NCBI GenBank assembly: GCA_010672825.2
Contig: JAAHFU020000002.1
Location: 1,004,001 to 1,068,000, forward strand
Direction of reading: 5' to 3'
DNA length: 64,000 bases
Source: Leptolyngbya sp. SIO1E4
GTDB lineage: Bacteria; Cyanobacteriota; Cyanobacteriia; Phormidesmidales; Phormidesmidaceae
The notes below the pieces were generated by a model that ran no database searches, was not told the origin of the DNA, and worked only from the letters and a program-made list of their open reading frames with translations. Shown here piece by piece: positions 47,385 to 52,353 of the stretch; within the stretch, counting starts at the first letter, position 1; each line of letters starts with the position of its first letter. A program made the position numbers and the translations under genes.

Positions 47385-50165
47385 ATGAGCCGTGATGCTC
47401 TTATCGTTGGAATTAATTCCTATAAGTACTTATCTACCCTCAAAGCCCCAGCTGTAGATGCTGAAGCCATCGCCCAAAGGCTTGAACAAGATGGCGATTT
47501 CCAGAAAGTCACCCGACTACCCGAGGCGATCGCACCGGCTGAGGTCAATAAGTCAGTGGTTTCTGAAACCAGTTCGGTTTCTCAACGCCAGCTAGAACAA
47601 GCATTAAAGCAGCTCTTTTTACCTGACAGTCCACTAGCCCCAGAAACCGCTCTGTTTTACTTTTCGGGCCATGGTCTTGCCGATAGGGAGGGTTATGAAA
47701 AAGGTTATCTGGCCACCAGCGACACCAATCCTCGCCATCCTCGTGGTTCTGCAATCTCCTTGGGGTGGCTGCACTGGCTGTTATCCAAGAGTTCGGTCAG
47801 GCAGCAAATCATCTGGCTGGATTGTTGTCATAGCGGGTCTTTAATCGTCAATGTGGGGGCGGCTAACCCCGGCAATAGTGCCAGCCGAGATCGCTGCTTC
47901 ATTGCTTCCTCCCGTGACTTTGAAAGCTCCTGGGAAGACCTCAATAGTCAGTACAGCGTGCTCACGAAAGCGTTGCTGGAGGGGCTTGACCCGACCCGGT
48001 TGCCAGGGCGCTGGGTGGATACCTTTGCTCTGGTGGATTACGTCAACCAAGCCCTTAAGGGTGAGCTACAAACCCCCGTCTGCACTAACTTTGGTGAGGC
48101 GATTCACCTGACTCGAACCTGGCAGGTGGCTGACCAGACATCCCAGACAGCCTCAGCCGACCAGGGGATTTGCCCCTATAAGGGGCTGGAGTTCTTTGAT
48201 TGCAATGAGGAAGACCCCAAATACTTCTTTGGTCGTGAGCAGCTAATTGGTCAACTTCTAGACCATGCCAGAACCCATTCTTTTATGGCCCTGGTGGGAG
48301 CCTCAGGCAATGGGAAGTCTTCCGTCCTGCGGGCTGGACTCTTGCATCAACTGAAACTGGGGCGACGTATTGCAGGCAGCGATCGCTGGCGCATTCGCAT
48401 CACCCGTCCAGACAGCCACCCAATGCAGAATCTGGCCCTGGCCTTTGTCGAAGAAGGCTTATCAGACTTGGATCGAGCTGAGGCACTTGGGCGAGCAACG
48501 GGCCTGCTCAATGAAGGGGGCGCTGGCTTACAGCGGTTGGTGCAAGCTTCCAGTGCTCCCCGCACCATCCTGGTCATCGACCAATTTGAAGAAGTCTTTA
48601 CCCGCTGCGCCGACCTTGAGGAGCGAGAGCAGTTCTTTGCCTGTTTGATGGGGGCGTTATCGGGCGCTGACGATAAACTCTGCCTCATCATTGCCATGCG
48701 AGCTGATTTTGTCGGTAAGTGCTTAGAGCGTCGGTACAGTGGCTTAGCTCAATTCATCCCACCCCATACGATTAGTGTGTTGCCGATGGAGCCCGATGAC
48801 CTCAAAGCTGCCATCTGCAAACCGGCTAAGCAAGTCGGGCTGACAGTTGAACCGGCATTAGTCACCCAAATTCTGAACGACATTACCGGGGCACCTGGCA
48901 GTTTACCCCTGCTGCAATACACCCTCAAAGCACTATGGCAGCAGCGACAAGGAAATCAGTTAGTCTTCACCGCCTATCAAGCATTGGGTGGCATTAACGG
49001 CACCTTGGATAAACGAGCCACTGAGATTTACAACGGCTTTGAGGCAACAGAACAGCACACGGTTCAGCATATTTTCCAGCAGCTCACCCAGCTCGGTGAA
49101 GGCACCGAAGATACGCGACGGCGGGTGTTTCAGGCAGATTTAGTGGCTGCCCCCCAACATCCTGAAGAGCAAGTACAGCAGGTTATCAGTCGCTTATCGA
49201 GTCCAGAAAATCGCCTCTTGGTCACCAGTGAGGTGATGAGTAAAGCCGATCAATCAGCCCGCATGGCGATCGTGGATGTGGCCCATGAAGCCCTGATTCG
49301 CCATTGGCAACTCCTACGTCGATGGCTGGAGCAAAACCGAGACCGGCTGCGACAACAGCGCAAAATTGAAGCGAGTACGGTAGCTTGGCGCGAACAGGGC
49401 CGACAACCAGGCTATCTCTTGCAAGGGCTACCCCTCATCGAAGCCATGCACTTTGACAAGCAGCAACGAGAGACGTTTCCCCTCTCTGACTCTGCCAAAG
49501 CGTTTATTAAAAAGAGCATTCAGCAACGACGCTGGAATTACCTCAAACTTGCTAGTTGGTTAGTGATTCCAGCCATGATCGGCCTTGGTATTGTCGAGCA
49601 CAATCTCCGTGAAAACAGCGTCAAAGCTGATTATGCTCGATTGGATCAAGAAGGAGGCTATGGAGAGAAACAAGCCGTGGAAGCGTTAGTGGAAGGGTGT
49701 GCGTCTCAGCAATTAAGGAAGTGGCTCCCGTCTTATTTTGCAGAACGGCTATTTGGGAACTGTCGCTCTCTTGAGAGAACCCCTTTAGCAAACGCCGACC
49801 TCCGCTCCGCCGACCTCCGCTCCGCCATCCTCTTCTCCGCCAACCTCCGCGCCGCCGACCTCCGCGCCGCCGACCTCCGCAGAGCCTACCTCCGCAACGC
49901 CGACCTCCGCGCCGCCGACCTCCGCTCCGCGATCATCTTCAATGTAGACTTACGCACCACTCAAAACCTTACTCAGCCGCAACTAAAGGGAAACAACCCT
50001 CCGCTGATCTGCAATTCCCCGCTTCCCGAAGGCATTGATATTGCTCGCAACAGAGACTGTGATAGGTTAGCTCCAGTCTTACTGGCAAGATATCCAGGGA
50101 CGTTTCAGAGTTTTGATCAGGCCCAAGAATACGTCACTCAACAACGCCAAAAAGCTTGGGAATAG
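47385..50165 (+). CDS. Caspase-STAND NTPase-pentapeptide repeat protein
   Basis: A 926-residue multidomain protein. The caspase/metacaspase domain (1-245) has the catalytic H96 (YFSGHGLAD) and C148 (LDCCHSG). A STAND NTPase follows (about 262-650) with Walker A GASGNGKSS (305-313) and Walker B ILVIDQFEEV (395-404), resembling the nSTAND1 type. A predicted membrane segment (about 718-740, LKLASWLVIPAMIGLGIVE) precedes about 11 pentapeptide repeats (ADLRx, about 803-858) and a short C-terminal region. This layout suggests a self-inhibited sensor in which ATP-driven oligomerisation activates the protease. Role in defence or programmed death is inferred. It diverges from the Trypco1 gene. Confidence 0.85.
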   Translation: MSRDALIVGINSYKYLSTLKAPAVDAEAIAQRLEQDGDFQKVTRLPEAIAPAEVNKSVVSETSSVSQRQLEQALKQLFLPDSPLAPETALFYFSGHGLADREGYEKGYLATSDTNPRHPRGSAISLGWLHWLLSKSSVRQQIIWLDCCHSGSLIVNVGAANPGNSASRDRCFIASSRDFESSWEDLNSQYSVLTKALLEGLDPTRLPGRWVDTFALVDYVNQALKGELQTPVCTNFGEAIHLTRTWQVADQTSQTASADQGICPYKGLEFFDCNEEDPKYFFGREQLIGQLLDHARTHSFMALVGASGNGKSSVLRAGLLHQLKLGRRIAGSDRWRIRITRPDSHPMQNLALAFVEEGLSDLDRAEALGRATGLLNEGGAGLQRLVQASSAPRTILVIDQFEEVFTRCADLEEREQFFACLMGALSGADDKLCLIIAMRADFVGKCLERRYSGLAQFIPPHTISVLPMEPDDLKAAICKPAKQVGLTVEPALVTQILNDITGAPGSLPLLQYTLKALWQQRQGNQLVFTAYQALGGINGTLDKRATEIYNGFEATEQHTVQHIFQQLTQLGEGTEDTRRRVFQADLVAAPQHPEEQVQQVISRLSSPENRLLVTSEVMSKADQSARMAIVDVAHEALIRHWQLLRRWLEQNRDRLRQQRKIEASTVAWREQGRQPGYLLQGLPLIEAMHFDKQQRETFPLSDSAKAFIKKSIQQRRWNYLKLASWLVIPAMIGLGIVEHNLRENSVKADYARLDQEGGYGEKQAVEALVEGCASQQLRKWLPSYFAERLFGNCRSLERTPLANADLRSADLRSAILFSANLRAADLRAADLRRAYLRNADLRAADLRSAIIFNVDLRTTQNLTQPQLKGNNPPLICNSPLPEGIDIARNRDCDRLAPVLLARYPGTFQSFDQAQEYVTQQRQKAWE
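49793..49932 (+). repeat. Tandem 15-bp repeats encoding pentapeptides
   Basis: Near-identical 15-bp units built on GCCGACCTCCGC run through the pentapeptide segment. Codon use here is strikingly GCC/CGC-biased compared with the flanking gene, as expected if units expanded recently by slippage or unequal crossover. Confidence 0.7.
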
Positions 50166-50708: not shown

Positions 50709-50781
50709 TGGAGAATAGGAGATTCGAACTCCTGACCTCTGCGGTGCGATCGCAGCGCTCTACCAGCTGAGCTAATTCCCC
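50709..50781 (-). tRNA. tRNA-Ala (anticodon CGC)
   Basis: A complete 73-nt cloverleaf on the minus strand. The acceptor stem GGGGAAT/ATTCTCC includes the G3-U70 wobble pair that identifies alanine tRNAs. The anticodon stem CTGCG/CGCAG carries loop ATCGCAC, so the anticodon is CGC and GCG codons are read. The T-arm AGGAG-TTCGAAT-CTCCT is intact, and the discriminator is A; CCA is not encoded. The anticodon stem-loop contains a HIP1 octamer (GCGATCGC). Its 5' leader is the last unit of the tandem array at 50782-51613. Confidence 0.97.
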
Positions 50782-51613
50782 AGATTTTACAGACGGCTAG
50801 GGTAACAGCTGATGACCTCTGCGGTGCGAATCGCCTCCGGCGAGGCTTCGCCAACGCAGCGCTCTACCAGCTGAGCTAATTCCCCAGATTTTACAGACGG
50901 CTAGGGTAACAGCTGATGACCTCTGCGGTGCGAATCGCCTCCGGCGAGGCTTCGCCAACGCAGCGCTCTACCAGCTGAGCTAATTCCCCAGATTTTACAG
51001 ACCGCTAGGGTAACAGCTGATGACCTCTGCGATGCGAGTCGCCTCCGGCGAGGCTTCGCCAACGCAGCGCTCTACCAGCTGAGCTAATTCCCCAGATTTT
51101 ACAGACCGCTAGGGTAACAGCTGATGACCTCTGCGATGCGAGTCGCCTCCGGCGAGGCTTCGCCAACGCAGCGCTCTACCAGCTGAGCTAATTCCCCAGA
51201 TTTTACAGACCGCTAGGGTAACAGCTGATGACCTCTGCGATGCGAGTCGCCTCCGGCGAGGCTTCGCCAACGCAGCGCTCTACCAGCTGAGCTAATTCCC
51301 CAGATTTTACAGACCGCTAGGGTAACAGCTGATGACCTCTGCGATGCGAGTCGCCTCCGGCGAGGCTTCGCCAACGCAGCGCTCTACCAGCTGAGCTAAT
51401 TCCCCAGATTTTACAGACCGCTAGGGTAACAGCTGATGACCTCTGCGATGCGAGTCGCCTCCGGCGAGGCTTCGCCAACGCAGCGCTCTACCAGCTGAGC
51501 TAATTCCCCAGATTTTACAGACCGCTAGGGCAACAGCTGATGACCTCTGCGATGCGAGTCGCCTCCGGCGAGGCTTCGCCAACGCAGCGCTCTACCAGCT
51601 GAGCTAATTCCCC
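50782..51613 (-). repeat. Eight 104-bp tandem units of partial tRNA-Ala plus leader
   Basis: Units begin at 50782, 50886, 50990, 51094, 51198, 51302, 51406 and 51510, each exactly 104 bp. Read on the minus strand, each has the first 49 nt of tRNA-Ala (acceptor 5' strand, D-arm, anticodon stem, variable loop), a 24-nt net insertion in the anticodon loop at the HIP1 site, and the 31-nt leader of the intact gene in place of the T-arm and acceptor 3' strand. Units 1-2 match the intact gene at GCGGTGCGA; units 3-8 share GCGATGCGAGTC and CCGC for CGGC changes. The insertion contains GGCGA/TCGCC and GCCTC/GAGGC palindromes. None of the units can form an acceptor stem. Confidence 0.9.
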
Positions 51614-51623
51614 CAGTCGATTT

Positions 51624-51652
51624 GTTATCGTAGCAGAGTCTTCCCATGTCAC
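51624..51652 (-). promoter_or_regulatory. Predicted promoter of the tRNA array
   Basis: On the minus strand GTGACA (51652-51647) and GATAAC (51629-51624) are 17 bp apart, matching 5 and 4 positions of the consensus. The first unit begins about 10 bp further on, so transcription would run through all eight units into the intact tRNA. It overlaps the upstream region of the divergent kinase gene. Confidence 0.45.
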
Positions 51653-51666
51653 GATAATACGCTGCC

Positions 51667-52353
51667 ATGCACGACGGTACTCAGCCTTTGATTGAGCGCA
51701 TTCAACAAGCGTTGCTACCTGATCTGCACCTCGAAAGCCAAGACCCTCATAATCCCGTTGTTGTTCACCAGCTGCCAGTTCCTTGGCGCTGCCTAGGCGT
51801 TGGTAACTACGCCGCCGTTTTTGTCCATCCTGACTATCCAGAGCAGGTGGTTAAAGTGTATGCGCCAGGACGGCCTGGCATCGCTGATGAACTTGAGGTT
51901 TATCGTCGCCTTGGAGAGCATCCCGCATTTTCTGAGTGCTACTACGGCGGAGCCGATTTTCTAGTATTGAAGCGGTTGCACGGCATCACTTTGTATGACT
52001 CTATGCATCGAGGGATAGTTATTCCTCCCCAAGTGATTCAAGACATCGATGAGGCGTTGGACTATGCCCGGAGTCGGGGGTTGTTTCCCCATGATGTGCA
52101 TGGTCGTAACGTAATGATGAGCGAGGGGCGGGGGTTAGTTGTAGATATTTCTGACTTTTTACATCAAAGTCCGTGCCTGGCTTGGCAAGACTTGAAGTGG
52201 GCTTATCGGTGGATTTATCGCCCGGTTTTTGGGCATTTGCGCCTGTGTGTACCGTATTTCTTGCTGGATGGGGTGAGAGCAGGGTATCGACTATTCAAGC
52301 GTTTACGACCCCGCCACAAGAAGCGATCTTTGCCCCATTACAGTCGTTTGTAG
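51667..52353 (+). CDS. Protein kinase-like (RIO-type) protein
   Basis: A 228-residue protein with a compact kinase fold. Visible motifs are GVGNYAAVFVHPD (glycine loop-like), VVKVYAPG (ATP lysine), HDVHGRNVMM (catalytic loop with Asp) and VVDISDF in place of DFG. The C-terminal tail is basic (KRLRPRHKKRS). Substrates are unknown. Its start lies 54 bp from the tRNA array, in the opposite orientation. Confidence 0.78.
   Translation: MHDGTQPLIERIQQALLPDLHLESQDPHNPVVVHQLPVPWRCLGVGNYAAVFVHPDYPEQVVKVYAPGRPGIADELEVYRRLGEHPAFSECYYGGADFLVLKRLHGITLYDSMHRGIVIPPQVIQDIDEALDYARSRGLFPHDVHGRNVMMSEGRGLVVDISDFLHQSPCLAWQDLKWAYRWIYRPVFGHLRLCVPYFLLDGVRAGYRLFKRLRPRHKKRSLPHYSRL

Follow-up and report, generated by a model that had tools for sequence, protein, structure and literature searches.

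The only full-length tRNA-Ala(CGC) copy found in the 8.2-Mb genome of Leptolyngbya sp. SIO1E4 is located at 50781-50709, on the minus strand of the window (the whole 64-kb stretch of DNA that was analyzed), and is preceded, with no gap in the minus-strand reading, by a tandem array. TRF reported this array at 50751-51613 (period 104, 8.3 copies, 99% matches, 0 indels, score 1677), and a direct parse of the minus strand resolved it into eight head-to-tail 104-nt units running from 51613 down to 50782, with starts at 51613, 51509, 51405, 51301, 51197, 51093, 50989, and 50885. The eight tandem units leading into an intact tRNA gene, as described in an earlier note on this DNA, were thus found at the same positions, and eight copies that are 99% alike cannot be due to chance. 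The features of the locus are the following:

50709-50781, minus strand: intact tRNA-Ala(CGC) gene (ARAGORN, Rfam, and genome-wide match search)
50746-50753, no strand assigned: HIP1 octamer GCGATCGC in the anticodon arm of the intact tRNA, nt 29-36 (motif scan)
50782-50885, minus strand: unit 8, adjoining the intact gene
50831-50854, minus strand: 24-nt SDR5-type hairpin insert of unit 8, TTGGCGAAGCCTCGCCGGAGGCGA; the same insert recurs in units 7 to 1 in steps of +104, up to 51559-51582
50886-50989, minus strand: unit 7, identical to unit 8 in sequence, tRNA-like TTCGCACCGCAG arm kept
50990-51093, minus strand: unit 6
51094-51197, minus strand: unit 5
51198-51301, minus strand: unit 4
51302-51405, minus strand: unit 3
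51406-51509, minus strand: unit 2
51510-51613, minus strand: unit 1, outermost and promoter-proximal, with 4 differences from unit 8
51614-51665, minus strand: native leader and presumed promoter, with an extended −10-like sequence TGCTACGAT 13 nt before unit 1 (position conserved in relatives)

Each unit starts with tRNA nt 1-31, continues with a 24-nt double hairpin and tRNA nt 32-49, and closes with a 31-nt linker. When compared to the intact gene, the units matched at 31 of 31 positions in nt 1-31 and at most positions of nt 32-49, and all of them lacked nt 50-73, corresponding to the T-arm and the 3′ acceptor strand, in agreement with the initial description of the units as the 5′ part of the gene. 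The count of 49 tRNA nucleotides per unit was also correct, but these nucleotides are not contiguous, being split by the hairpin. The units are 96-100% identical to each other. Those nearest the gene, units 7 and 8, do not differ and retain a more tRNA-like arm; three changes relative to this pair are common to units 2-6, and unit 1 carries one more.

Lacking the T-arm and the 3′ acceptor strand, the units cannot become tRNAs, and no ARAGORN or Rfam match was found within them, the intact gene alone being scored as a tRNA. They are tRNA-derived and unable to form a tRNA, as expected of tRNA pseudogenes. The intact tRNA was the sole known RNA family detected at the array in the Rfam scan, a Guanidine-II match at 51862 falling under the cut-off (E 0.98). 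A protein-coding reading was rejected, as the unit length of 104 is not divisible by 3 and no long frame runs through the array. Near the array, positions 47385-50165 encode a protein of 926 aa that combines caspase-like (PF00656), nSTAND1 NTPase (PF20703), and pentapeptide-repeat domains, and a 15-bp tandem repeat at 49793-49930 corresponds to the pentapeptide part of its gene.

The length of the 24-nt segment had been reported correctly, but its nature had been missed. The segment splits HIP1 precisely between its bases 3 and 4 (GCG^ATCGC), and the octamer interrupted in the units is that of the anticodon arm, which is left whole in the intact gene. HIP1 octamers are abundant in the window (75 versus 1 expected). 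The units read GCG-24 nt-TTCGC where the intact gene reads GCGATCGC and relatives read GCG-24 nt-ATCGC, the first base 3′ of the insert having mutated from A to T/C in the Leptolyngbya sp. SIO1E4 units. In its statement on SDR5, a very small mobile cyanobacterial repeat that it credits to Elhai et al. 2008, PMC4390886 reports insertion between the third and fourth HIP1 bases.

Outside the array, elements of the same pattern were found in a HIP1 context eight times in Leptolyngbya sp. SIO1E4 (at most 2 mismatches to a degenerate pattern), and elements of the same form in 13 of the 14 genomes tested, with 0 matches for a reversed control pattern. The exact 24-mer was not found elsewhere in the genome beyond the array, the nearest sequences having 2-3 mismatches. 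The two short hairpins of the insert covary, with 4 pairs changed on both sides among 20 aligned units (for example, GGC/GCC to CCC/GGG between species), and the dispersed copies show concerted variation of the 3′ stem. SDR elements are reportedly 21-27 nt in size. Judged by its insertion site, size, dispersal, and hairpin form rather than by a published consensus, the insert is best read as an SDR5-type element.

A hairpin at the border of the anticodon stem-loop might also represent a removable RNA intron, in which case interrupted copies would still yield tRNA, and some downstream copies in relatives do keep the acceptor and the T-arm. This is extremely unlikely. The upstream units are devoid of the T-arm and of the 3′ acceptor strand, so that no splicing can make a tRNA from them, the downstream copies have a second insert in the T-loop, and the element is dispersed outside tRNA genes too.

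Elsewhere in the same genome (locus L159, C1:1036400-1037100), three tRNA-like genes in a row were observed with a common insert of ~36 nt in the anticodon region (CTTGTCCGCAAGGGCCGAAGAATGAGGGTTATCG), these inserts being 94% and 64% alike. Similar inserts occur in six other genomes (G002, G015, G016, G028, G033, and G465) and lie in tRNA-like genes in the three whose context was read (G002, G016, and G465), and their motifs resemble "introns" listed in PMC5733544.

The remaining 31 nt of the unit had been taken for the leader of the gene, with a breakpoint at −31. This assignment does not hold, since the segment is unlike the sequence before unit 1 (7/34 identical positions, with an alignment score no better than that of shuffles); by this comparison it is a linker common to the units and not the native leader, which is present solely before the outermost unit. 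In most genomes that carry units, the −10-like box is found 13-14 nt ahead of the first of them, in most genomes without units it is found 11-15 nt ahead of the gene, and none was found at a workable distance in the linkers of the genomes compared. As a generic sigma-70 scan detected no promoter before the array, the promoter call rests on this conservation. The placement of the box sets the units between promoter and gene and suggests that they would be transcribed ahead of tRNA-Ala(CGC), as an oversized tRNA leader.

The units might then be a selected leader RNA that tunes the supply of tRNA-Ala(CGC), with tRNA-like structures in competition over folding or over RNase P and the dose set by the number of units. 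Wherever units are present, they separate the presumed promoter from the gene, their nt 1-31 are conserved, and in equilibrium folding of the full leader with at least two units the 3′ acceptor strand of the gene pairs with an upstream unit (about 0.9). However, the gene folds natively (0.83) when the pairing span is limited to 110 nt, and the folding effect is inconsistent across species, its outcome shifting with the span allowed. Moreover, unit folding is only mildly better than that of shuffles (z −2.1 here and −0.7 for the 77-nt unit), and many relatives that share the promoter box and the gene either lack units or hold decayed ones. We thus regard selection for such a leader as unlikely.

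Within the same family, 21 genomes have the unit before tRNA-Ala(CGC) (genera g1, g2, g8, g11, and g12), as does a single genome outside it, G316 (family f16); Nodosilinea, Shackletoniella, and Oscillatoria sp. CS-180 are among the named carriers. Copy counts in relatives, which had been proposed as a check, gave 8 units in Leptolyngbya sp. SIO1E4, 5 in G316, and 3 in Shackletoniella. Three genomes have 2 units, Nodosilinea sp. LEGE 07088 being one of them (at least 2 in G027, where the contig ends), and the others have 1. Units measure 75-80 bp in one set of genomes, 85-91 bp in another, and 101-127 bp in the group of Leptolyngbya sp. SIO1E4. In a phylum-wide sample, the exact unit pattern was detected in 3 of 386 genomes (Leptolyngbya sp. 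SIO1E4, G001, and G316), and in the genomes searched with tRNA nt 1-31 no unit was found away from the tRNA-Ala(CGC) locus. In several relatives there are also spare copies downstream, in which an SDR interrupts the anticodon arm and another insert the T-loop.

The unit is decaying in five genomes (G011, G034, G064, G072, and G078), in G066 the outer copy is worn and the inner one fresh, and G013 seems to retain the linker scar alone. Decay in several species argues against a strict function. From this distribution, the unit itself is old and family-wide, its copy number alone being recent. The proposal, from the near identity of the units, that the array is recent and/or homogenized was right, but the age of the unit itself had been missed.

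Tandem repeats are prone to assembly errors, and the array might have been produced in this way. This is very improbable given that the unit variants are ordered along the array, that the genome was assembled in 12 contigs, and that independent assemblies of other species hold 2-5 units, the recurrence of the same kind of array in relatives arguing against an artefact.

In most relatives, the 3′ end of the unit, after the SDR, was observed to be a perfect triloop hairpin, GCACCG-NNN-CGGTGC, at a place where the tRNA has a mere quasi-palindrome; template-switch correction would leave such a hairpin. This third hairpin of the unit is absent in Leptolyngbya sp. SIO1E4. In addition, no full-length tRNA-Ala(CGC) match was seen in some near-complete genomes (G065 and genera g3 and g13), which may be able to do without this tRNA or have a strongly diverged form of it.

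The relationship between unit and gene was also examined within each genome. In 20 of the 21 genomes compared, the unit nearest the gene and the gene itself had the same base at nt 16 (Fisher p = 1.3e-4, phylogeny ignored), a private T25 is common to unit and gene in G084, and the downstream copies in G007, G008, and G029 carry the private 3′ bases of their own genome. Between species, nt 1-31 diverge by 0.03-0.10, against 0.20-0.25 in the SDR part, a 2- to 7-fold difference, and about 0.4 in the remainder of the unit. Because species-specific bases are common to unit and gene, gene conversion by the intact gene most likely keeps the 5′ part of the unit close to it. Purifying selection on the RNA would likewise be compatible with the low divergence of nt 1-31.

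The single occurrence outside the family points to lateral transfer. The 3.0-Mb G316 genome has five units with the same SDR sequence as Shackletoniella, no further SDR5-type element was found in it and none in its congener G050, and six of its congeners are without a unit. It is thus likely that the unit moved between families in this one case, and recombination at the tRNA gene would be the simplest account. Further, tRNA-Ala(CGC) is an attachment site for islands in this family: 42-nt copies of its 3′ part (nt 32-73) with conserved flanks were found in several genomes, one of them about 77 kb from the gene in G032 (C1:1890058-1967178), and in Nodosilinea LEGE 07088 the gene is followed by one for a tyrosine integrase (PF00589, 3.9e-19). 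The 42-nt island core was observed to start at the same bond as the SDR insert, GCG^ATCGC, and a degenerate 3′ tRNA-Ala(CGC) piece is present at C3:8919 in Leptolyngbya sp. SIO1E4.

The transfer into G316, together with the tyrosine-integrase islands that attach at tRNA-Ala(CGC) and whose common core begins at that bond, could mean that the unit is a laterally mobile or selfish sequence that invades tRNA-Ala(CGC) loci, perhaps along with integrative elements. We consider this quite improbable, as units were not found off this locus and ordinary homologous recombination at the tRNA gene accounts for a single transfer. An origin in viruses or plasmids was likewise rejected, as viral contigs gave no exact match to the unit pattern and plasmids no match covering the unit. 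In the same way, the presence of 3′ pieces in several genomes could suggest that the units were left behind as tRNA-targeting islands repeatedly integrated and excised. There is very little likelihood of this: att remnants are 3′ halves, whereas each unit is a 5′ half that contains an SDR insert and lacks the 3′ half, units occur in genomes both with and without islands, and none was seen inside islands beside an integrase. The argument that the units are not a phage attachment duplicate was thus well founded, pieces of that kind being 3′ and occurring elsewhere in these genomes. The idea that the units serve as a decoy attB was discarded, since the unit-bearing genomes G032, G063, and G077 also hold island att pieces at tRNA-Ala(CGC), and units are therefore no bar to integration.

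Taken together, these results make it probable that the array is an amplified tRNA-Ala(CGC) pseudogene, broken by an SDR5-type element, truncated, homogenized, and expanded by recombination, most likely without a selected function. Of the three proposals of the earlier note, the amplified pseudogene is the best supported, ahead of a source of tRNA-like RNA and a control of the tRNA-Ala supply. A tandem duplication would first have placed a spare tRNA-Ala(CGC) copy between promoter and gene. The 24-nt hairpin would then have inserted in the HIP1 octamer of the anticodon arm of this copy, inactivating it, and everything 3′ of the variable loop would also have been lost. The truncated unit was then inherited in the family, as its presence in relatives shows, while its tRNA-derived 5′ part was homogenized with the neighboring intact gene, most likely by gene conversion. 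As the units are 96-100% identical, the rise to eight copies in Leptolyngbya sp. SIO1E4, by unequal recombination or replication slippage between units, would be recent; elsewhere, there are 5, 3, 2, or 1 units, or the units are in decay or have disappeared. The native promoter probably drives units and tRNA in one transcript, so that RNase P would have to free the real tRNA from a leader of about 850 nt.

Persistence of the unit in five genera and in one genome of another family is, however, long for pure junk, and the third hairpin, recurrent in most species though not in Leptolyngbya sp. SIO1E4, also counts against the pseudogene reading. The unit could instead be a laterally acquired leader RNA under selection that mimics a tRNA: the promoter would drive an array of 5′ halves carrying the SDR hairpin, and the small RNAs released from it would set the supply of tRNA-Ala(CGC) or serve as decoys, for instance for tRNA-targeting enzymes, with the number of units as the dial. 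We find this reading decidedly unlikely.

Read as an amplified pseudogene, the array offers a natural case in which a very small mobile repeat meets an unavoidable target, the HIP1 octamer in a tRNA anticodon arm, and in which spare copies are broken repeatedly at one bond while one intact copy survives. With 1 to 8 units, it is also a countable system for concerted evolution, for array growth and decay, and for the tolerance of a bacterial tRNA to additional leader sequence. Finally, it calls for caution, as cyanobacterial tRNA copy counts and "introns" can be SDR-broken copies.

The array is new as a combination, its parts being of known kinds. In E. coli, the tyrT locus has 178-bp tandem repeats (rtT RNA), each starting with a piece of the adjacent tRNA and co-transcribed with it. 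The likeness lies in tandem repeats that each begin with a piece of the adjacent tRNA gene, but in tyrT this piece is the 3′ end and the repeats lie downstream of the gene, whereas here it is the 5′ half, upstream, with a mobile hairpin. The attL/attR fragments of integrative elements (PMC9897764) are also partial tRNA copies, and tRNA-Ala(CGC) is such a site in relatives; they are, however, 3′ pieces at island ends, whereas the units are tandem 5′ pieces that lack nt 50-73. Group I and other tRNA introns are removable inserts in an otherwise complete tRNA, unlike the 24-nt insert in these truncated copies. The tRNA arrays of cyanobacteria, such as the trn operon of Anabaena 7120 (PMC10272220), similarly align many tRNA-derived units in a row, but these are intact and different tRNAs, whereas here one broken tRNA is repeated. 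With SDR5, the insert has in common a 24-nt hairpin between HIP1 bases 3 and 4, dispersal, and covarying stems; here, in contrast, the element is trapped inside a truncated tRNA copy and has been amplified along with it, its exact sequence being confined to the array.
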